From Naasia sp. SYSU D00057 (GTDB lineage: Bacteria; Actinomycetota; Actinomycetes; Actinomycetales; Microbacteriaceae), in assembly GCF_017916505.1 (NCBI RefSeq), contig NZ_JAFMSZ010000001.1, forward strand, positions 186,001 through 250,000: a stretch of 64,000 bases of DNA, given 5' to 3'. Shown one piece after another: positions 39,871-49,509 of the stretch; position 1 is the stretch's first letter, and every line of letters begins with the position of its first letter. The translations under genes and the position numbers were made by a program. The notes beneath the pieces are model-generated. The model did no database searches, had not been told where the DNA came from, and saw only the letters and a program-made list of their open reading frames with translations.

Positions 39871-39951
39871 CCCCGGCCGGGACCACCCCGGGGTCCTTCC
39901 GCGCGCCGTCAACCCATGCCCGTGCAGGCATCCGATCGAGAGGACGGTCAC

Positions 39952-41409
39952 ATGGACCAGACCCTGGCACCGCTGCTCACCGCACTCGCCGACTACCACG
40001 CGAAGAACCGGTACGGCTTCACCCCGCCCGCCCACCGCCAGGGGCGCGGAGTGGACGAGCACACGCTCGCGGTGATGGGCAAGGACCCGTTCCGCGACGA
40101 CGTCGTGGCGACCTCCGGCCTCGACGACCGGTCCTCGTCGAACGGCTACCTCACCAAGGCTCAGGAGCTGATGGCCGACGCCGTCGGCGCCGAGCAGTGC
40201 ATGTTCACGACGGCGGGCAGCTCGCTGTCGGTGAAGGCGGCGATGCTCTCGGTCGCCGGGCACAGCGGCTCCATCCTCATGAGCCGGGACGCCCACAAGT
40301 CGGTCGCCGCGGGGCTCATCTTCTCGGGGATGCAGCCCGCCTGGATCCCGCCGCGGTGGGACGGCGAGCAGCACCTCACGCATCCGGTGTCGCCCGCGCA
40401 GGTGGAGAAGGCCTGGGAGAATAACCCGGACGCGGCCGCCTGCCTGGTGGTCAGCCCCTCCCACTACGGCACGTCGGCCGACCTGCGAGCGATCGTCGAC
40501 CTCTGCCACAAGCGCGGCAAGCCGGTCATCGTCGACGAGGCGTGGGGCGCTCACCTGCCGTTCCACGAGGACCTGCCGACGTGGGCGATGGATGCCGGCG
40601 CCGACATCTGCGTCGTCAGCGTGCACAAGATGGGCCTCGGCTTCGAGCAGGGCAGCGTCTTCCACCTGCAGGGCGACCTCATCGACCCCGCCCACCTCTC
40701 GGCGTGCGCGGACCTGCTCATGACGACGAGCCCGAACACCCTCATCTACGCCGCGATCGACGGGTGGCGCCGGCACATGGCGCTCGACGGCAGGGAGGTG
40801 CTCGGCGCGGCGCTCGAGCTGGCGCGGAAGGTGCACTCCGACATCGAGCAGATCGAGGGGCTGCACGTGCTGCGCGACGAGTTCCTCGCCGAGGCGCACG
40901 AGCTCGACGAGCTCCGGCTCGTCATCGACCTGCAGAGGCTCGGCATCACCGGCTACCAGGCGACCGACTGGCTGCGCGAGAACCACCACATCGACATGGG
41001 GCTCTCCGACCACCGCCGGATCGGCGCCGACATCTCCCAGTCCGACGACGAGGACACCGTGCACCGCCTCCTCGAGGGGCTGAAGGACCTGGCCGCGCAC
41101 GCCGAGTCGTTCGAGCGGCCGCCGCAGATCATCCTCCCCGAGCCGGGCGAGCTCGAGCTGGAGCAGGCGGACCTCCCCCGCGACGCCTTCTTCGGCGAGT
41201 GCGAGATGGTGCCCGCCGACGAGGCCGTGGGCCGGATCGCCGGCGAGATGGCCACGCCCTACCCGCCCGGGACGCCCGCCTTCATCCCCGGCGAGCGTCT
41301 CAACGAGAGGGTGCTCGAGTACCTCCGCAGCGGATTGAAGCTGGGCATGAACGTGCCCGACGTCACCGATCCCACACTGGAGACGATCCGCGTCCGCAAG
41401 GAGAGGTAG
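39952..41409 (+). CDS. Orn/Lys/Arg decarboxylase family PLP enzyme
   Basis: A 485-residue fold-type I PLP enzyme. N-terminal ADYHAKNRYGFTPPAHRQGRG is typical; the cofactor Lys is K226 in VVSVHKMGLG, with D195 and H201 in IVDEAWGAH contacting the ring. It has the compact C-terminal domain of short amino-acid decarboxylases. The product could be cadaverine, agmatine or putrescine; the amino acid cannot be told. The ATG at 39952 has GAGAGGAC upstream and is preferred over 39916. Region 39871-39951 holds no other gene. Confidence 0.9.
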   Translation: MDQTLAPLLTALADYHAKNRYGFTPPAHRQGRGVDEHTLAVMGKDPFRDDVVATSGLDDRSSSNGYLTKAQELMADAVGAEQCMFTTAGSSLSVKAAMLSVAGHSGSILMSRDAHKSVAAGLIFSGMQPAWIPPRWDGEQHLTHPVSPAQVEKAWENNPDAAACLVVSPSHYGTSADLRAIVDLCHKRGKPVIVDEAWGAHLPFHEDLPTWAMDAGADICVVSVHKMGLGFEQGSVFHLQGDLIDPAHLSACADLLMTTSPNTLIYAAIDGWRRHMALDGREVLGAALELARKVHSDIEQIEGLHVLRDEFLAEAHELDELRLVIDLQRLGITGYQATDWLRENHHIDMGLSDHRRIGADISQSDDEDTVHRLLEGLKDLAAHAESFERPPQIILPEPGELELEQADLPRDAFFGECEMVPADEAVGRIAGEMATPYPPGTPAFIPGERLNERVLEYLRSGLKLGMNVPDVTDPTLETIRVRKER

Positions 41410-41464
41410 CGGCGGCCGTCCGTCGCACCGGCGCCGGGTGACGGGGGTCAGTGTCCGCGGTCAA

Positions 41465-41470
41465 TAGAGT
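41465..41470 (+). promoter_or_regulatory. -10 box (TAGAGT), leaderless layout, epimerase gene
   Basis: TAGAGT lies six bases before the GTG at 41477. Confidence 0.5.
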
Positions 41471-41476
41471 GCGTAG

Positions 41477-42442
41477 GTGCCCGATCGGATCGTCCTCGCC
41501 GGTGCGTCCGGCTTCCTCGGCCGCTATCTGACCGACGCGTTCCGCGCCGAGGGCGCATCCGTCGCCACCATCGGCCGCCGCGGCGCCGACGCGACGTGGG
41601 GCGATCCGGACGCGATTCGCCGCGTCCTCGACGGGGCCGACCTGCTCGTGAACCTCGCCGGCAAGAGCGTCGACTGCCGGTACAGCGCCCGCAACCGCGC
41701 CGAGATCCTGCGCTCCCGCGTCGAGACCACTCGCGCCCTCGCCGCCGCGGTCGCCGCCTGCACGGCTCCCCCGCCGCTGTGGATCAACTCGTCCACGGCC
41801 ACCGTCTACCGGCACGCCGAGGACCGGCCCATGACGGAGTCGGCGGGCGAGATCGGTGACGGCTTCTCGGTGAGCGTCGCGACCGCCTGGGAGGAGGCGT
41901 TCTTCGCCGGCGACCTCCCCGCCACGCGGCGGGTGGCGCTGCGGCTCGCGATCGTGCTCGGCGACGGCAGCTCGATGATCCCCCTGCTCGGCCTGACCCG
42001 GCTCGGTCTCGGCGGCTCCCAGCTCGACGGCCGGTGGCCCGCCACCCGTGCGCGTCTCGCAGCGGGCACCTACCACCGCTTCCGGTCCCGCGGCGGCCGC
42101 CAGCGCTTCAGCTGGGTGGCCCTCGAGGACGTGCTCGGCATCATCCGCTTCGTGCGCGATCATCCCGAGCTGGAGGGGCCGCTCAACGTCGCGTCGCCCA
42201 ACCCGTCCGACAACCGGACGCTGATGCGCATCCTGCGCCGCGCGGTCGGCATGCCGGTCGGCATCCCGCTGTTCCGGTGGATGCTCGAGCTCGGCGCGAT
42301 CGGCATCCGCACCGAGTCGGAGCTGATCCTCAAGAGCCGGTGGGTGGTGCCGAAGCGCCTGCTCGCGGCCGGGTACCGGTTCCGCCGACCGGATCTCGAG
42401 CCGACCGTGCGGGCGATCGTCGCGGAGCGCCGCCGCCGCTGA
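41477..42442 (+). CDS. TIGR01777/YfcH-like NAD(P)-dependent epimerase family protein
   Basis: A 321-residue extended short-chain dehydrogenase. Rossmann motif VLAGASGFLGRYLTDAF (about residues 6-22), VNLAGKSVDCRY, the SSTATVYRHAED active-site region, and a C-terminal domain LMRILRRAVGMPVGIPLFRWMLELG typical of TIGR01777 (DUF1731). The active-site Tyr (TVYRH) is kept. Substrate unknown. Start GTG with a leaderless layout. Confidence 0.9.
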   Translation: MPDRIVLAGASGFLGRYLTDAFRAEGASVATIGRRGADATWGDPDAIRRVLDGADLLVNLAGKSVDCRYSARNRAEILRSRVETTRALAAAVAACTAPPPLWINSSTATVYRHAEDRPMTESAGEIGDGFSVSVATAWEEAFFAGDLPATRRVALRLAIVLGDGSSMIPLLGLTRLGLGGSQLDGRWPATRARLAAGTYHRFRSRGGRQRFSWVALEDVLGIIRFVRDHPELEGPLNVASPNPSDNRTLMRILRRAVGMPVGIPLFRWMLELGAIGIRTESELILKSRWVVPKRLLAAGYRFRRPDLEPTVRAIVAERRRR

Positions 42443-42491
42443 TCCGGCGTCGGCGGCTGGGTCCATACTGCGGAGGCGAGGAGGTGCGGCG

Positions 42492-43061
42492 GTGGTCGAT
42501 CGGGAGACGCTCGAGTTCGCGGACGCGCGCGCCTTCGAGGACTGGGTCGCGGCGCACCACGACTCCTCCCCCGGCATCTGGCTGCGGATCGCGAAGAAGG
42601 GCAGCGGCATCCCGTCCGTCACCTACGACGAGGCGCTGCAGGTGGCGCTCGCCTGGGGCTGGATCGACGGGCAGAAGCGCCCGCAGGACGAGCGCCACTG
42701 GCTGCAGGGGTTCGGGCCGCGGCGGCCGCGGAGCGTGTGGTCGAAGCGGAACGTCGAGTTCGCCGAGCGGCTCATCGAGCAGGGCGGGATGCAGCCGAGC
42801 GGGCTCGCTCAGGTGGAGGCGGCGCGGGCGGACGGCCGCTGGGACCGCGCGTACGACGGCCCCCGCAACGCGGTGGTGCCGCCCGATCTGCAGGAGGCGC
42901 TGGATGCGGACCCCCGCGCCGCGGAGAGCTTCGCCCGACTGAACAGCACCAACCGGTTCGCGATCCTGTATCGGGTGCAGGACGCCAAGCGGCCGGAGAC
43001 GCGTGCGCGGCGGATCGCGCAGTTCGTCGACATGCTGGCGCGTGGCGAGAAGCTGTACTGA
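42492..43061 (+). CDS. YdeI/OmpD-associated family protein
   Basis: A 189-residue protein of the YdeI-like (bacteriocin-protection) family: FEDWVAAHHDSSPGIWLRIAKKGSG, VALAWGWIDGQKRPQDERHWLQGFGPRRPRSVWSKRNVEF, and FARLNSTNRFAILYRVQDAKRPETRARRI. Function unknown; relatives are reported near stress genes. Start GTG at 42492 with GGAGG nine bases upstream; a CATACT -10-like sequence is further up. Confidence 0.9.
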   Translation: MVDRETLEFADARAFEDWVAAHHDSSPGIWLRIAKKGSGIPSVTYDEALQVALAWGWIDGQKRPQDERHWLQGFGPRRPRSVWSKRNVEFAERLIEQGGMQPSGLAQVEAARADGRWDRAYDGPRNAVVPPDLQEALDADPRAAESFARLNSTNRFAILYRVQDAKRPETRARRIAQFVDMLARGEKLY

Positions 43062-43105
43062 CCCGCGCCGGCGGCCTCCGCCGGCGGCGCCGGGACCGGC
43101 CAGGG

Positions 43106-45532
43106 TCAGCCGGTCGCGGCCGTCGGGGCGGGCGTCGCCTCTGCCGCCGGCTCGGAGGGCGTGACAGGCGTGGACGGCGCGGGCTCCGGTGCGGGCGCCG
43201 GGCCCTCCTCGGCGGGCGGGGAGGACGGCTGGGTCGACGGCTCGGGATCGGACGGCGCCTCGGGCTCTGGCCCTTCCGTCCCACCCGCTCCGTCCGGATC
43301 CGGGTCGCTCGAGCCGTCCGGTGACGAGGAGGGGTCCGGGGCCGGTGAGGGAGTGCCGCCCCCGGTCGCCGGCGCCCCGGTCGCGGGCGCGGGCACGGCG
43401 GCGGGGTCCTTCGCGATCACCTCCGCGATGCGCGCCTTGAACTCGGTCAGCCGCGCCTCGAGCTCGGAGAGCGGCACGTCGGCGATGTGCGCGCCGAACT
43501 CGGCGAGCTCCTGCCAGAGCGCCTGCAGCTCCGCGAGCGTCGCGTCACTGAGCGGGCCGTCGAGGGTCAGCACCAGCTGCTGGGCGAGCGCGTAGCTGAC
43601 GCAGTCGATGCAGTTGTAGTTGACCGCGGCGGCGAGGTTCTGCGGGACGGCGACATCGGCCTGGCCGACCACGAGGACGACCTGGAAGCCGACAGCGACT
43701 GCGGCGCAGCCGTCGCAGCTGGCGAACGCGAAGGCCTCGTTCGTCGTGTCGACGATGTCGTCTTCGACCCAGACCAGAGCGAACGCCACGTCGTACACGA
43801 TGGTCCCGTCCTCGGTGTTGACGGCGAGCGCCTGGCTGTCCCCCTCCTTGGGCGCGCTCGGCCGGTCGAACGGGAAGACCCAGGCCGGCGCCGGCGCGTC
43901 GGTCGCGGCCCCTGCGCCTGCGCCGCGGCCTTCGCCGTCCGTGCGAGGCAGCAGCATCACCGACATCGCCGGGTCGTCGGCGGTCGGCAGCGGGCCGTCC
44001 TCGGGCCATAGGACGACCTGCCGGCCCGTATCCCCGGCGGCCATCACGGCCGTCTGATGCTGTCCCGGCGCGAGCGCGCGGACGGCGGAGGTGACGGTCC
44101 CGTCCTCGTACGCCTGCACCGGCCGATAGGTGCCGGGGGCCGGCCACCACGCCACGGCGAGAGCGGCGACCACGGCGGCGGCGACGAGGGCGGCGATCCC
44201 GCGGCGGACCGGGCGCCCGGAGGTCCGCCGCCAGGCGGACAGCGCCAGCTGCCGGACCATCCGGATCAGGAGGTAGCCCATCCCGGCGACCGGGACGGCG
44301 ATCGCGAGCATGGCGAGGATCCGCACGGCCATGCCGCCGGCATCCCCCGCGTCCGCGGCGGCCGAGAGCATCCCGGACTGCTCGCCGAGGCTCGCGAGCG
44401 CCGTGCCGACGATCCGCGGGAAGGCCAGGACGAGGAGGACCGCGCTGAGCAGCAGCAGCGGGACGACGAGGAGCACCCACAGCGTGATGACCGCGCGCGC
44501 GCCCGGCTTGAGCACCCGGTTCTCCGGGTCCTTCCAGCGCCACGGCAGCAGTCCGCGAAGGGTGGGTCCGATGCGCTGGAAGAGGTCCGGCACCCCCGTC
44601 GTGTCGGCGAGCACGTGGTAGCCGTCGAAGCGGACCACGGGCGCCAGCTGCCGGACCATCAGGAGCACCTGGCTCGCGACGACGAGCAGGAGTGCGTCGT
44701 CGCGCGTGAGGAGCCACACCAGGCCGATGAGCACGGCGACGATCGCGTTGAAGTAGAGCCCACCGAGGTCGGTCCGGATGCGGCCCCAGCGGCCGAGCCG
44801 ATAGGAGTCGGTGACGTCGGTGTAGAACGCGGGCCACACGAGGTAGAGGCCCGCTCCCATGGCGCCGGGTGCCGCTCCCCCTCGAGTGGCGGCGGCGGCG
44901 TGCCCGAACTCGTGCAACCCGGCCGACAGCAGCGTGAGGACGAAGACGAGCAGGAGGAGCCCGGGACGGTCGAACGCCTGGCGCGTCGCGGCGGCGAGGC
45001 CCCGCTCGAACAGCACCCACCAGCACACCGCCGCGAACGCGAGCAGCACCGGCACGGCGATGAAGGGGGTGAAGAGCCGGGCGAACGGCGCGGTGAGGCG
45101 GCGGGTCCGCTCGGGATCCGTGACGGTGACCCGAAGGCGCATGCGCAGCAGCGGGTCCGACCGCTTCAGCTCCGGCTCGCCGCCGTCGGGTCGCCGCAGC
45201 AGGCCGAGCGGGAGGAGCTGCGAGCCGATCAGCTGCCGGACGTCCGACGGCGCGACCGACCGCTGCAGGGCGCCGCTGACCGCGCCGGCGATGTCCGCCA
45301 CCGTGCGCTCGCCGTCGACCGCGTCGAGGAGCGCGTACAGCAGTGGGGTCAGCTGCAGGACCTGGCCGTCCGCCCGTCGGACGAGCGCGGGCGGCGTCCG
45401 GTAGCCGGACCCGTCGAGCGCTCCGAGCAGCTGCACACCCTCCGCCCGGGCCGGGACCCAGGCGTCGGAGGAGGGATCAGCGGGGGCCGGTGGGCCGCCG
45501 ACCGGCGACGGCCCACCGGTGCCGATGCTCAT
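43106..45532 (-). CDS. M50-like membrane metalloprotease with PqqD-like N-terminus and secreted tail
   Basis: An 808-residue multi-pass protein. Residues 30-120 look like a PqqD-type winged helix (LLYALLDAVDGERTVADIAG), the fold used as RiPP recognition element. The zinc protease core has HEFGH (207-211) in a membrane helix, a second-helix motif RFDGYHVLAD (301-310) and several further helices (about 150-175, 190-215, 260-275, 345-372, 402-420, 445-463). After the last helix comes a ~250-residue outside domain with two CxxC motifs (C606/C609 and C641/C644) and a Pro/Glu/Ser-rich tail (712-808). No function is known to me; the domain order resembles peptide-maturing M50 proteins. The ATG at 45532 lies three bases after the stop of the repeat-protein gene, so they form one operon. 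Confidence 0.8.
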   Translation of the reverse strand: MSIGTGGPSPVGGPPAPADPSSDAWVPARAEGVQLLGALDGSGYRTPPALVRRADGQVLQLTPLLYALLDAVDGERTVADIAGAVSGALQRSVAPSDVRQLIGSQLLPLGLLRRPDGGEPELKRSDPLLRMRLRVTVTDPERTRRLTAPFARLFTPFIAVPVLLAFAAVCWWVLFERGLAAATRQAFDRPGLLLLVFVLTLLSAGLHEFGHAAAATRGGAAPGAMGAGLYLVWPAFYTDVTDSYRLGRWGRIRTDLGGLYFNAIVAVLIGLVWLLTRDDALLLVVASQVLLMVRQLAPVVRFDGYHVLADTTGVPDLFQRIGPTLRGLLPWRWKDPENRVLKPGARAVITLWVLLVVPLLLLSAVLLVLAFPRIVGTALASLGEQSGMLSAAADAGDAGGMAVRILAMLAIAVPVAGMGYLLIRMVRQLALSAWRRTSGRPVRRGIAALVAAAVVAALAVAWWPAPGTYRPVQAYEDGTVTSAVRALAPGQHQTAVMAAGDTGRQVVLWPEDGPLPTADDPAMSVMLLPRTDGEGRGAGAGAATDAPAPAWVFPFDRPSAPKEGDSQALAVNTEDGTIVYDVAFALVWVEDDIVDTTNEAFAFASCDGCAAVAVGFQVVLVVGQADVAVPQNLAAAVNYNCIDCVSYALAQQLVLTLDGPLSDATLAELQALWQELAEFGAHIADVPLSELEARLTEFKARIAEVIAKDPAAVPAPATGAPATGGGTPSPAPDPSSSPDGSSDPDPDGAGGTEGPEPEAPSDPEPSTQPSSPPAEEGPAPAPEPAPSTPVTPSEPAAEATPAPTAATG

Positions 45533-45535
45533 CCG

Positions 45536-46285
45536 CTACTGCTGCAGGTCCGACTGCTGGTCGGCGGTGGCGGTGGCCGCCCCGTCGATCTGCTGGCTGA
45601 TGATCGCATCCTGCTGGGCGATCGCGGTCGCCTCGCTGCCGACGGAGCCGATGTTCGCCGCGACCGCGGCGTCGATGGGCGCCGCGACGTTGGCGTTGGC
45701 GGCGACCGCGCCGTTGATCGGCGCCGCGATGCCGGCGGCCGCGTCGAGGTTCACGTCGACGTTGAGCAGGCCGCCGTCGAGGGCCGACGTGACGTCGTCG
45801 ACCGTGCCGCCCACATCGGGCAGGGTGCCGTCGGGGAGGGTGCCGTCCGGAAGCGTGCCGTCCGGCAGGGTGCCGTCCGGAAGCGTGCCGTCGGGGAGGG
45901 CGCCGGCCGCGTCGGCGGTGCCGGCGTCCTCGGTGCCTGGGGCGGCCCCGGCATCGGTCGTCGAGTCCTGATCGATGCCGCTGTCCTGGGCTGCAGTGGC
46001 GGTGGCCTCGGCGTTGATGCCCTGGTCGATCATCACCCCCTGGTCCGAGAGCGCCTGCGCCGTCGAGCCGTCGGAGAGGATGTTCGCGCCGACCGCAGCA
46101 TCGATGGGCGCGGCGACGTTCGCGTTGGCCGCGACGGCGAGGTCGATGGGGGCCGCCACGTCGAGATCCAGGTTGAGGTCGGCGTTGAGGTCGAGGATCG
46201 ACGCGACCTCCTTGTCGGGGAGCGCCGTGACCGTCTCGGCCGCGAGCTCGTCCTGCGAGAGCGGGGGAAATTCCTTCTCGTTCAT
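45536..46285 (-). CDS. repeat-rich Ala/Asp protein with duplicated 56-residue unit and LPDGT tandem repeats
   Basis: A 249-residue acidic protein. N-terminus MNEKEFPPLSQDELAAETVT reads like a leader (no signal peptide). Two 56-residue copies (about 43-98 and 186-241) share the VAANANVAAPIDAAV core and continue alike to the ATATA ends. Between them lie an Asp/Ala/Gly linker, five perfect LPDGT repeats (130-154) and a VDDVTSALDGGLLNVDVNLD segment. No Cys, no membrane helix. It directly precedes the M50-like gene; I read it as the likely substrate or cargo, which is inference. The ATG at 46285 follows AAGGGAG. Similar proteins of no known function occur in other actinobacteria. Confidence 0.8.
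   Translation of the reverse strand: MNEKEFPPLSQDELAAETVTALPDKEVASILDLNADLNLDLDVAAPIDLAVAANANVAAPIDAAVGANILSDGSTAQALSDQGVMIDQGINAEATATAAQDSGIDQDSTTDAGAAPGTEDAGTADAAGALPDGTLPDGTLPDGTLPDGTLPDGTLPDVGGTVDDVTSALDGGLLNVDVNLDAAAGIAAPINGAVAANANVAAPIDAAVAANIGSVGSEATAIAQQDAIISQQIDGAATATADQQSDLQQ
45824..45898. repeat. five tandem 15-bp repeats (coding LPDGT x5)
   Basis: Five in-frame 15-bp units within the repeat-protein gene, each coding Leu-Pro-Asp-Gly-Thr with small silent differences between units. Whole-unit gain or loss would keep the frame. Confidence 0.9.
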
Positions 46286-46328
46286 GTGATCTCCCTTTCC
46301 GATGCCGTATGCCGCATCTGCCGTGTCC

Positions 46329-46334
46329 ACGCTA
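46329..46334 (-). promoter_or_regulatory. candidate -10 box (TAGCGT) for the repeat protein-M50 operon
   Basis: TAGCGT on the minus strand, 43 bases before the ATG at 46285, giving a short leader that contains the ribosome site. No clear -35 is seen. Confidence 0.35.
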
Positions 46335-46454
46335 TTGAGGAGCGCTCACCGGCGAGAGGGGTTGCGCGACAGCGTCGATGTTTGGCAGTAGCTGGGAGAT
46401 CGCTCCTCGTCCGCTGACGAAGAGAAGGGACTGGACCGTCTGACGCGGGCCGGG

Positions 46455-47147
46455 TCAGGCTTCGGTGCGCTCGACCGGCTGGAGCTTGGCGAGCTGCCGC
46501 TCGATCCCGATCTCGATGAGGCGCACCTTCCCGGCGAGGTCCTTGCCGGGCGCGAGCAGCAGACCCGCCTTGATGCCGCCGAAAGTGACGGTGACGTCGG
46601 CGGGCAGCACGACGTGATCCGCGACGCTGCCGTCGTCGGCGCCGACTCCACTCGGGATGTCGACCGCGACGACGGTCGCGGCCTCCGGGCCGGCGAGCAG
46701 CGGCAGCAGCCCGCGGACCACGTTCCGCGCGGCGCCGCGCAGGGCGCCGGAGGAGCCGATGCCGAGGATGCCGTCGAGGATCACGTCGGCGTGTGCGGCC
46801 GAGTCGACCGCCTCGTCCGTCGACACCACGCGGGCGCCGGCGCGCACCGCGGCCGCCATGCCGTCCTCGTGCGTGCGGTCGAGCACCGGCAGCACGAGGA
46901 CGTCGGCGCCCTTGGCCGAGAGCTCGGCGGCGGCGAAGAGGGCGTCTCCCCCGTTGTTGCCGGGCCCGGCCAGAACGAGCACGCAGGGCCGCGCGGACCG
47001 CTGCAGGCCGTCGCGGCGGCGCTCGGCGAGAACTTTGCGGGTCTCAGCTGCGAGCCCCGCCGCGGCGCGAGCCATCAGCGGCTCGTGGTTGGCGAGGTGG
47101 GGCGCCTCGGCGGCCCGGATCTGCTCTGCGGAGTATCCGGCGGCCAT
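46455..47147 (-). CDS. nnrE: NAD(P)H-hydrate epimerase
   Basis: A 230-residue YjeF-N domain enzyme that epimerises damaged NAD(P)HX so that the matching dehydratase can repair it. Motifs: VLAGPGNNGGDALFAA (about residues 57-72), DVILDGILGIGSSGALRG, VVAVDIPSGVGADDG and VTFGGIKAGLLLAPG. In many bacteria it is fused to the NnrD dehydratase; here it stands alone and no nnrD is in the window. The ATG at 47147 has GGGAGG upstream. Confidence 0.93.
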   Translation of the reverse strand: MAAGYSAEQIRAAEAPHLANHEPLMARAAAGLAAETRKVLAERRRDGLQRSARPCVLVLAGPGNNGGDALFAAAELSAKGADVLVLPVLDRTHEDGMAAAVRAGARVVSTDEAVDSAAHADVILDGILGIGSSGALRGAARNVVRGLLPLLAGPEAATVVAVDIPSGVGADDGSVADHVVLPADVTVTFGGIKAGLLLAPGKDLAGKVRLIEIGIERQLAKLQPVERTEA

Positions 47148-47163
47148 CGGCGCCTCCCTCGGA

Positions 47164-47421
47164 TCAGACGGCGGCGAGCTTCTCTCGCAGCTCGGGGTCG
47201 CTGGGCTCGACGAGGTGGGAGCCGTCCGGGAAGACGATGACCGGGATGTTCATGCGCCCGCTGATCGCCCGCGCGCGGTCGGCCGCATCCTCGACGGCCA
47301 CGGTGTCCACATAGTCGTAGTCGACGCCGAGTCCGTCAAGCAGCCGCTTGGACCGGCGGCAGTCGCCGCACCAGTCGGCGCCGAACATGGTGACCTTGTC
47401 GAAAGCAGTATTCGCACTCAT
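47164..47421 (-). CDS. mycoredoxin-like glutaredoxin family protein
   Basis: An 85-residue thioredoxin-fold protein with the redox site WCGDC (Cys 18 and 21), cis-Pro in MNIPVIVFPDGSHLVEPS. Mycoredoxins reduce mycothiol-mixed disulfides in actinobacteria; the usual site is CGYC or CPYC, so CGDC is a variant. It ends 16 bases before the nnrE start, so the two may be one operon of redox and cofactor repair. Confidence 0.92.
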   Translation of the reverse strand: MSANTAFDKVTMFGADWCGDCRRSKRLLDGLGVDYDYVDTVAVEDAADRARAISGRMNIPVIVFPDGSHLVEPSDPELREKLAAV

Positions 47422-47472
47422 TGCTACTAGTCAACCAAGGAGCGGCGTGCGTCATTCCCGCCGGCCGGTCGC

Positions 47473-47478
47473 TACGGT
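47473..47478 (+). promoter_or_regulatory. -10 box (TACGGT), leaderless layout, DUF429 gene
   Basis: TACGGT lies seven bases before the ATG at 47486. Confidence 0.45.
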
Positions 47479-47485
47479 GAGCCCG

Positions 47486-48466
47486 ATGCAGTACATCGGG
47501 GTGGATCTGGCGTGGGGCGAGGGGTCCGCACAGCGGGCGGCCAAGGAGAGCGGGTTCGCGGTGCTCGACGGGCGCGGCGTCATCCGCGAGGCGGGATGGC
47601 TGCGCGGCATCGACGCCGTCGCGGACTGGCTGACTGCCACCGCGGAGCCCGGCGCCGTCATCGCGGTGGACGCACCCCTGGTCGTGCCGAACGCCACCGG
47701 CATGCGCACCTGCGAGAAGGAGGTCGGAAGCCGCTACGGCCGCTGGAGGGTGGCGGCCAACGCGAGCAACGCCGGCCTCGGGTGGCTCGGCGGCGTACGC
47801 CTGCGCGAGCGGCTCGAGGCAGCCGGGTTCCGGTACACGGACGGCACTGTCCCCGCGTCGCCGGAGGACCGCTCGTTCTTCGAATGCTACCCGTACACGA
47901 CCCTCGTCGGCATGGTCGAGCTCGGCTACGACGACGAGCGACCGCGGTACAAGCGGCTGAACGCGTCGCTGCCGGCGCCCGAGGGGCGGGCGCGCCGTGC
48001 GGTGGCGATGGACGAGCTGATCCGCAGGGTCGGGCTGCTCCGCGACGCGGAGCCGCCGGTCGATCTCGGCTCGCACCCGCTCACCAGCCGGCTGCTCGAA
48101 GAGCCGTCGACCGCCGTCGCCTCCGAGCACAAGCACCGCGAGGATCTCCTCGACGCGGTCCTCTGCGCCTGGACGGCCGCGATCTGGCACGTGCACGGCG
48201 AAGCGCGCACCCAGGTGCTCGGCCGCGACGACGCGCCGGACTCGGAGGGGCGGCGCGCCACGATCGTCGCGCCTGCCCGCGAGGAGCAGCGAGCGGGCCG
48301 GGGCAGGTCCAGCCGGCCGCGAGCGACCGAGGCCGGTCGCGGCTCGATCGTCGGGGTGCTGGAACTCGCCCTGCGCGAGCTGCGGCGCCTGCCGGAGGCC
48401 GACGAGCGCACCAGGCCGCACCTCGCCGATCTCCGGGACGAGCTGGACCGTCTCGCGCCGCGCTGA
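47486..48466 (+). CDS. DUF429 family protein
   Basis: A 326-residue protein of DUF429, an RNase H-like fold family. MQYIGVDLAWGEGSA (acidic residue in the first strand), VIAVDAPLVVPNATGMRTCE, SFFECYPYTTLVGM and EHKHREDLLDAVLCAWTAAIW match the family. Enzymatic role unknown. An extra C-terminal segment of ~85 residues (Arg-rich then helical) follows the usual domain. Divergent from the mycoredoxin gene. Confidence 0.88.
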   Translation: MQYIGVDLAWGEGSAQRAAKESGFAVLDGRGVIREAGWLRGIDAVADWLTATAEPGAVIAVDAPLVVPNATGMRTCEKEVGSRYGRWRVAANASNAGLGWLGGVRLRERLEAAGFRYTDGTVPASPEDRSFFECYPYTTLVGMVELGYDDERPRYKRLNASLPAPEGRARRAVAMDELIRRVGLLRDAEPPVDLGSHPLTSRLLEEPSTAVASEHKHREDLLDAVLCAWTAAIWHVHGEARTQVLGRDDAPDSEGRRATIVAPAREEQRAGRGRSSRPRATEAGRGSIVGVLELALRELRRLPEADERTRPHLADLRDELDRLAPR

Positions 48467-48523
48467 CCGGGGCCGGTAGGGGTGACCAGGGCCGGCAGTC
48501 GTCGCCTTCGCACATGCCTCCGG

Positions 48524-49285
48524 CTAACCCGTGGGCACGGGCTCCCCGGGGCACGTGGTCAGGATCGCTGCGATCGCATCGTGCTCGGCCTGCGTCATCC
48601 AGAGGCCGTACTCCGCCTTCACCGCCACCTGCCGGGCGACGTAGGCGCAGCGGACGGAGCGGCTCGGGGGCAGCCAGGTCGCGGCGTCACCGTCGCCCTT
48701 GCTGCTGTTCGTCGGGCCGTCGACGGCGAGCAGGTTGAGCGGATCGTTCGCGAACGCGATCCGCTGCTCCTGGGTGAGCTGCTGGGCGCCCTTCTGCCAG
48801 GCGTCCATGAGCGCCACCACGTGATCGATCTGCACGAGCGTGCTCGTCGTGTTTCCGCGGACGAACTCGATGGTCGCGCCCGTGTAGGGGTCGTGCAGGG
48901 TGCCGGTGAGCACCTTGCACGGCCCCGAGAGCACCTCGCCCTCGAGGTCGCGCTGCAGGATGTCGTTGCGGGTGTCGCAGCCGTTCCGGTCGATGTCGAG
49001 CCACCCGCTGCCGAAGTCCTCCTCGCGGTCGTAGCCGGTCTTCGGCGCCCGGCCCTTGATCGGGATGGTCGCGAGCAGGTCGGCGGCCGGGGACGCCGAG
49101 GCAGGCGACTCAGTTCCGACCGGCTGAGGTGCAGACGGCACGGGCGAGAGCACGCCCGGCGTTGGCCCGGTGGCGGTCGCTCCGGACGGGGCATTGAGGA
49201 AGCCCAGGGCTGCCGCCCCGGCGAGGACGAGCGCGACCAGCACACCGATCGCCGGCCCCGACCGCCGCCGTCTCCCCCGCCCCAT
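48524..49285 (-). CDS. secreted HNH endonuclease family protein (DUF1524-like)
   Basis: A 253-residue exported protein: basic RGRRRRSG start and one hydrophobic segment (about residues 12-30), then a Pro/Ser/Ala linker, and a nuclease domain with LDIDRNGCDTRNDILQRDL, the catalytic TLVQIDHVVALMDAWQKGA, NDPLNLLAVDGPTNSSKGD and WLPP. This is the layout of secreted actinobacterial HNH nucleases of the DUF1524/GmrSD-C group. Its role could be extracellular DNA use or competition. Region 49286-49509 carries no further gene. Confidence 0.9.
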   Translation of the reverse strand: MGRGRRRRSGPAIGVLVALVLAGAAALGFLNAPSGATATGPTPGVLSPVPSAPQPVGTESPASASPAADLLATIPIKGRAPKTGYDREEDFGSGWLDIDRNGCDTRNDILQRDLEGEVLSGPCKVLTGTLHDPYTGATIEFVRGNTTSTLVQIDHVVALMDAWQKGAQQLTQEQRIAFANDPLNLLAVDGPTNSSKGDGDAATWLPPSRSVRCAYVARQVAVKAEYGLWMTQAEHDAIAAILTTCPGEPVPTG

Positions 49286-49509
49286 CCCGGCCACGCTAGG
49301 CGGGGCGCCGCCGCGATCGGCGGACCCGCATCGCGTGTCCTTCCTCCCCAACGTGACGCCGCGTTTCGCACACCCTTGGCCCACCCTGCGCGCGGTGGCA
49401 GGGTCGAGGCCACGCAGCGCGCCCCGCGAAGCCTCGCGTTCCATCCGGAACACGCCTGCGATTCCCACCGGAGGAGTCGCGCGCCGACTCCCGCACCCAA
49501 GGAGTCGAG

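Follow-up and report, generated by a model that had tools for sequence, protein, structure and literature searches.

A gene pair in Naasia sp. SYSU D00057 raises the question of how, and to what end, a membrane protease that looks made to read a leader and cut a repeat protein handles its substrate. The pair lies in a stretch of 64,000 nucleotides (the window; contig NZ_JAFMSZ010000001.1, positions 186,001 to 250,000) and comprises a gene for a 249-residue repeat protein, the putative substrate (45536..46285, minus strand, ATG start, TAG stop), and a gene for an 808-residue fusion of a recognition element of ribosomally synthesized and post-translationally modified peptides (RiPPs), termed RRE, a site-2 protease (S2P), and a C-terminal domain (43106..45532, minus strand, ATG start). 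We give about even chances to the reading that the pair is a self-contained system, derived from RiPP machinery, that processes a repeat protein left unmodified, and that the product leaves the cell and assembles outside. The resemblance of the predicted outer end of the protease to the repeat suggests that this cassette is an undescribed way of placing a structural protein on the cell surface.

Both genes are genuine and their features lie beyond chance, since both reading frames are under purifying selection (ratio of nonsynonymous to synonymous change, pN/pS, in three same-genus comparisons, the source of all such ratios here), the repeat protein matches itself beyond its shuffles (45 identities at the best offset; maximum of 37 in 1000 composition shuffles), and the motifs described below are invariant. 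The sequence-only reading placed a Cys-free repeat protein of 249 residues 3 bases ahead of an 808-residue membrane protein, and coordinates and composition agree with this. A plausible ribosome site, AAAGGGAG, lies ahead of the repeat gene; the protease gene follows in the same frame, its start right behind the repeat-gene stop, and its translation is therefore probably coupled to that of the repeat gene.

The repeat protein lacks Cys, Tyr, Trp, His, and Arg, contains 22% Ala and 13% Asp, carries a net charge of −39, and ends in QQ. It consists of a leader (residues 1–37, PLSxxELxAExxTALPDKEVASxLDLNADL; 46175..46285), a first repeat unit (residues 34–106; 45968..46186), a variable low-complexity linker with tandem LPDGT (residues 107–176; 45758..45967), and a second unit (residues 177–249; 45539..45757), all on the minus strand. 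The two units match at an offset of 143 with 41 of 73 residues identical, so that the duplication reported from the letters alone stands, with a unit of 73 rather than 56 residues. The conserved leader reported there also stands: a leader of the type LP.KE(V/A).S.(L/I)D.N is present in 88/88 substrates picked solely by the repeat motif. Residues L22–S29 are invariant in 7/7 aligned homologues. In a further alignment the rows were chosen by a leader-containing pattern, which makes its invariant leader columns partly a matter of construction; the count of 88 comes from independently picked proteins, in a recount in which the substrate filter dropped 3/91 loci and the protease filter 10/91. Selection is strong on the leader (pN/pS 0.23–0.25), unit 1 (0.09–0.24), and unit 2 (0.15–0.19), and weaker on the linker (residues 105–170, 0.40–0.66). 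In the structure model, leader residues 1–30 have predicted local distance difference test (pLDDT) values of 57–77, with a strand at 19–22 and a helix at 24–37; at this moderate confidence, the strand is suggestive of leader binding.

The N-terminal part of the protease was expected to adopt a PqqD-like RRE fold, and the predicted structure displays one at about residues 26–106 (45215..45457, minus strand). The RRE topology is a three-stranded sheet followed by a winged-helix bundle of three helices; the model has three strands and then three helices (pLDDT 73–92), and this region matches the RRE domains 5v1u, 4v1v, and 8t19 and the PqqD structure 3g2b. All fold matches of the fused model were obtained with VIA-align. 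The membrane region (residues 157–463; 44144..45064, minus strand) has about seven predicted transmembrane segments and, from hydropathy and flanking charges, an N-in/C-out topology. It carries both hallmarks of site-2 (M50) proteases within membrane segments, an HExxH motif and a distal xDG motif; the sequence-only reading had pointed to these as HEFGH and FDGYH, and they begin at residues 207 (207–211; 44900..44914, minus strand) and 302 (302–306; 44615..44629, minus strand), each invariant in 7/7 homologues. The zinc motifs are inferred to lie at the cytosolic face of the membrane. An S2P fold match of the model across residues 132–315 bears out the proposed M50 type. Because the score against PF02163 is 10.2 bits versus a gathering score of 27.2, a sequence cut-off and not a biological feature, we speak of an S2P-like enzyme. 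Values of pN/pS are 0.52–0.55 for the RRE region, 0.27–0.42 for the membrane core, 0.18–0.31 for the C-terminal domain, and 0.69–0.77 for residues 705–808, which include a variable Pro/Ser/Glu-rich tail (residues 715–808; 43109..43390, minus strand).

How constant is the pairing? A scan covering 84,980 species, each represented by one genome, used a trimmed protease alignment and two strict peptide patterns and found at least 204 stretches encoding relatives, the best 80 of which were kept as loci. These 80 include Naasia, Mycetocola, Agromyces, Microbacterium, Arthrobacter, Pseudarthrobacter, Sinomonas, Phycicoccus, Pedococcus, Georgenia, Nocardioides, Blastococcus, Geodermatophilus, Mycolicibacterium, Lentzea, and others. 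Together with 11 loci from whole genomes they gave 91 loci of the window type, among which three pairs are the same locus taken twice (L022/L056, L026/L031, and L028/L032). A substrate homologue lies directly upstream of the protease in 90/91; the repeat motif alone recovered it in 88 of the 91. A search for HEFGH returned 90 proteases, 89 of them with an upstream open reading frame (ORF) bearing an LP.[KR]E leader, and reading the ORF of L109 added that locus. The remaining locus, in Sinomonas susongensis (L095, 9758–12310), reads HEFGR where the others have HEFGH, and upstream of it just the second half of a substrate is in frame; both genes look degenerate there, or else the assembly is faulty.

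Within the window's genus, four of nine genomes contain the system. In its family the repeat-protein search matched 16/199 genomes, of which 4 were judged by eye to be real and 12 low-complexity. Across a sample of 396 genomes from the phylum, the protease profile matched somewhere in 47, in 25 of them over the protease core; the other matches are weak S2P-only hits, C-terminal-only hits, or the daptide protease of G232. When the same 396 were searched with a profile combining leader and unit, 19 matched, all within those 47 (hypergeometric 6e-20, relatedness ignored), and in 17/19 the substrate is at most about 1.1 kb from the protease core. In G375 the substrates instead adjoin a separate C-terminal-domain gene, and in the fragmented assembly of G216 no protease core was found. 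Substrate and protease thus form a nearly strict pair. The sequence-only reading was to be refuted if one gene often occurred without the other, which is not the case for the window-type pair; in the wider clade, proteases without this substrate exist, as 7/25 core-bearing genomes have no match to its profile, and the four of those seven that were inspected (L152, L153, L154, and L156) all have other leader peptides upstream. An all-versus-all comparison of ORFs from the window and 27 representative loci (about 10 kb each where the contig allows) recovered the protease in every locus and no third ORF common to more than 6/27 other loci.

These data bear on regulated intramembrane proteolysis, in which the repeat protein would be a regulator and its cleavage a signal. 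Site-2 proteases are generally known to work often in such cascades; against this, Pfam and NCBIfam returned nothing for the repeat protein at E ≤ 1, no hydrophobic segment was found on reading its sequence, and no regulator gene is conserved alongside in most loci. We regard this explanation as very improbable.

Relatives of the protease reveal a simpler form of the substrate. Loci from other classes of the phylum (L141–L144, L150, L157, and L158) have a protease core that stops after the membrane region, with 2–4 substrate genes, mostly of 64–92 residues, beside it. Each short substrate has one leader (LSxEELxAQxGExLPDREEMSL) and one unit (NVAAPVNAAVAANVLSDDSVAYANAEQDVDIDQS), so that the window-type protein is a longer, two-unit version; L150 and L157 each encode one additional two-unit substrate, of 180 and 144 residues. 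The C-terminal domain is a separate gene in L141–L144, and its product begins like a signal peptide, as judged by eye, in L141 (8439–9164), L142 (4221–4997), and L143 (8761–9453); no separate gene for it was seen in L150, L157, and L158, where the contigs end nearby. A tree of 64 protease rows places the window type in a single clade (31 rows, 100/100) that neighbours the short-peptide and Streptomyces types; the tree lost 14 rows to the motif filter, including both true daptide proteases, and its bootstrap is unsettled. The Streptomyces-type loci retain the leader motif ahead of quite different cores (L153, L154, L156, L171, and L172).

The RRE-fused S2P architecture itself is not new, as daptides already provide examples of intramembrane site-2 proteases fused to an RRE; there, an RRE-dependent intramembrane peptidase removes the leader (PMC10036551). 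The daptide MpaA/MpaP system (PMC10036551) also resembles the related loci here with several short leader peptides. It differs in its leader (ELExMEAP versus LPDKEV here) and C-terminus (Thr versus Gln); further, the window protease scores 98.4 bits against a cut-off of 300 for NF041824, has an extra C-terminal domain, and lacks the company of a conserved set of modifying genes. One genome, G208, encodes a true daptide protease plus a window-type protease. The epipeptide system EpeXEPAB/YydF-YydH is similar in that an M50 protease matures and perhaps exports a ribosomal peptide; EpeP is presumed to cleave EpeX and carry it out of the cell, although EpeX production is not wholly lost without EpeP (PMC10885120). 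Here the window protease scores 38.5 bits against a cut-off of 225 for NF058609, and no third gene is conserved in most window-type loci.

That the nearest protease families belong to the daptide and epipeptide pathways, that related loci have several short precursors with one leader each, and that Streptomyces-type relatives join the leader to unrelated cores would all fit a RiPP-like signalling or antimicrobial system, in which the protease frees bioactive peptides, several of them cut from the repeat protein as one fused precursor. We nevertheless hold this to be unlikely, given that no gene for modification, immunity, or transport recurs beyond the 6/27 loci noted above, that the units are better conserved than the linker, unlike the usual antagonistic peptides as generally understood, that the precursors are strongly acidic (net charge −17 to −59 in 86/86), and that no leader motif precedes unit 2.

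What, then, could become of the freed units under the preferred reading of export and outside assembly? The C-terminal domain of the protease (residues 566–714; 43391..43837, minus strand), predicted to face outward, is modelled with confidence (pLDDT 95.0; predicted template modelling score, pTM, 0.87) as three strand-turn-strand repeats with two CxxC motifs, followed by two helices. Alignment rows were picked by a CxxC-containing pattern, which makes the invariant Cys partly a matter of construction; recounted in proteases selected by other criteria, two CxxC occur in 81/81 and C..C...A...Q occurs twice in 79/81. By pattern, 90/91 window-type loci carry the domain as a fusion with the protease. 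The substrate unit (P.N.A...N..S..S...A...Q) and the C-terminal repeat (N.A.A...C..C...A...Q) have a common spacing, and HHalign pairs the two in that register (P 1.1e-4, score 23.3, with pattern-picked units; maximum of 13.4 in 100 column shuffles and of 21.5 in 200 shuffles preserving odd and even positions; 11.4 for the reversed profile). Placed against the full 676-column protease profile, the unit falls best on the C-terminal repeat stretch, with a probability of only 4.9%. This likeness and the short-peptide relatives go beyond what the sequence-only reading had seen. With the predicted N-in/C-out topology, the leader reader would be cytosolic and the substrate-like domain outside, on opposite sides of the protease, a prediction in line with the signal-peptide-like starts seen where the C-terminal domain is free-standing.

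Two known fibre systems offer parallels. Curli CsgA/CsgB have Gln/Ala ladders of similar spacing (S/Q-x5-Q-x4/5-N/A-x-A-x3-Q; PMC4706413), and the notion of a nucleator homologous to the fibre subunit is common to both. In the substrates here, a Q.....Q.....A.A...Q ladder is present in 73/75, twice in 64, and its period is 18 versus 19–23 in curli; the repeat protein does not match the curlin repeat profile at the threshold given above, and the Csg genes themselves were not searched for. Fap (FapB/C/D/F), which we see as a parallel design by analogy, has a repeat fibre protein, a homologous proposed nucleator, and a CxxC motif, and the leader-peptidase homologue FapD, of the bacteriocin-leader-peptidase family, is required for secretion (PMC6173800). 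FapD is a C39 protease and not an S2P, and Fap subunits travel by Sec and then through a pore in the outer membrane. In Foldseek, the C-terminal domain taken by itself has FapC as its first-ranked row, a weak match (E 0.011, TM-score 0.18).

The gene pair, its conservation, and the motif similarity are shown here, folds and topology are predicted, and on these grounds a sequence of inferred steps can be proposed. They partly support the sequence-only reading, in which the repeat protein is bound through its leader, exported or processed by the protease, and delivered to the cell surface. The cytosolic RRE domain very probably binds the N-terminal leader (LPDKEVxSxLDLNAD), as fold, conservation, and co-occurrence indicate, and the S2P core (HEFGH, FDGYH) would, with only slightly less assurance and from family knowledge, cut the leader off at or in the membrane. 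The acidic units lack a signal peptide, and whether they exit the cell once freed we judge evenly balanced; the protease itself would be the likeliest route, given that no conserved transporter gene adjoins it. Outside, the units could take on the strand-turn-strand repeat of the C-terminal domain and assemble on it, a step that the sequence similarity and the confident domain model make plausible, if somewhat short of even chances. The C-terminal domain, fused here and a separate secreted protein elsewhere, would be an anchor, chaperone, or nucleator, and the product a surface-attached β-repeat protein or fibre. More tentatively, the pair may give monoderm actinobacteria a functional-amyloid-like system of surface fibres, built from RiPP machinery with two genes, in which the protease releases the subunit and nucleates and anchors the fibre, its outer domain being descended from the same repeat as the subunit.

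Two points weigh against this line of argument. With the exception of the tail, no part of the protease is less constrained than the RRE region, a finding that counts mildly against a strict leader reader, and the structural evidence for amyloid is weak. The second point also favours leader-dependent processing of an acidic protein, soluble or bound to the wall (such as a metal-binding one), that never polymerises, with the C-terminal domain acting as its receptor or as a folding chaperone. Extreme acidity, an almost complete lack of aromatic residues, and the N/D alternation in NADLNLDLD and NVDVNLD speak for such a product; the Gln/Ala ladder and the likeness of the units to the stacked C-terminal repeats favour stacking instead, and we consider a non-polymerising product improbable.

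If export and outside assembly are correct, leader/RRE recognition, known from small modified peptides, would extend to a large repeat protein that lacks conserved modifying genes, and a protease, a possible exporter, and an extracellular substrate partner would be united in one polypeptide. The gene pair makes it testable whether a site-2 protease can also move its own product across the membrane. The function is probably general, in view of the at least 204 relatives, the best 80 of which include Arthrobacter, Nocardioides, Mycolicibacterium, and Geodermatophilus.

Several further observations concern the neighbours of these genes. In the window (39916–49468) they encode an Orn/Lys/Arg decarboxylase, an NAD epimerase with DUF1731, an OmdA/YdeI protein, a YjeF_N protein, a DUF429 protein, and a GmrSD_C protein (48527–49468); these five and DUF429 belong to families other than daptide modifying genes. 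Two Micrococcaceae loci have a second C-terminal-domain-like ORF upstream of the repeat gene (L039, 8542–8988; L067, 8514–8960). Next to the separate C-terminal-domain gene lies a lipoprotein-like gene in L141 (7666–8442), L142 (4997–5842), and L143 (7961–8764), which has no convincing Pfam or NCBIfam family in the two loci scanned (L141 and L142) and is not present in the Streptomyces plasmid locus L171. On the Streptomyces plasmids L171 (3253–6468) and L172 (1500–5578) the leader motif is joined to cores of other kinds, either NQCSPYAVAQ-type or Gly-rich and containing two Cys, and every one of these is annotated as hypothetical; L171 encodes an additional, separate Cys-bearing protein with a signal-peptide-like start. 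In L152 (8531–8809) the leader motif (AQSAGLLPDRLEM) precedes an unrelated core ending in PPYYTQPPAV, the protease type being the same and the cargo different. The ORFs L183–L205 form a separate clade of about 490–1160 residues, mostly from other classes, and score about 130–180 bits with the daptide-protease hidden Markov model, under its cut-off. Finally, a small leaderless protein (core like AGAVNAVVAANVNEPGRSVSRVSSRQRIVQR) lies beside short-peptide loci, in L141 (11828–12055, minus strand), L144 (5607–5897, minus), L150 (3830–3991, minus), L157 (7712–7876, plus), and L158 (1804–2064, plus), and aligns with the substrate unit (score 20.9 versus a maximum of 15.5 in 100 shuffles).

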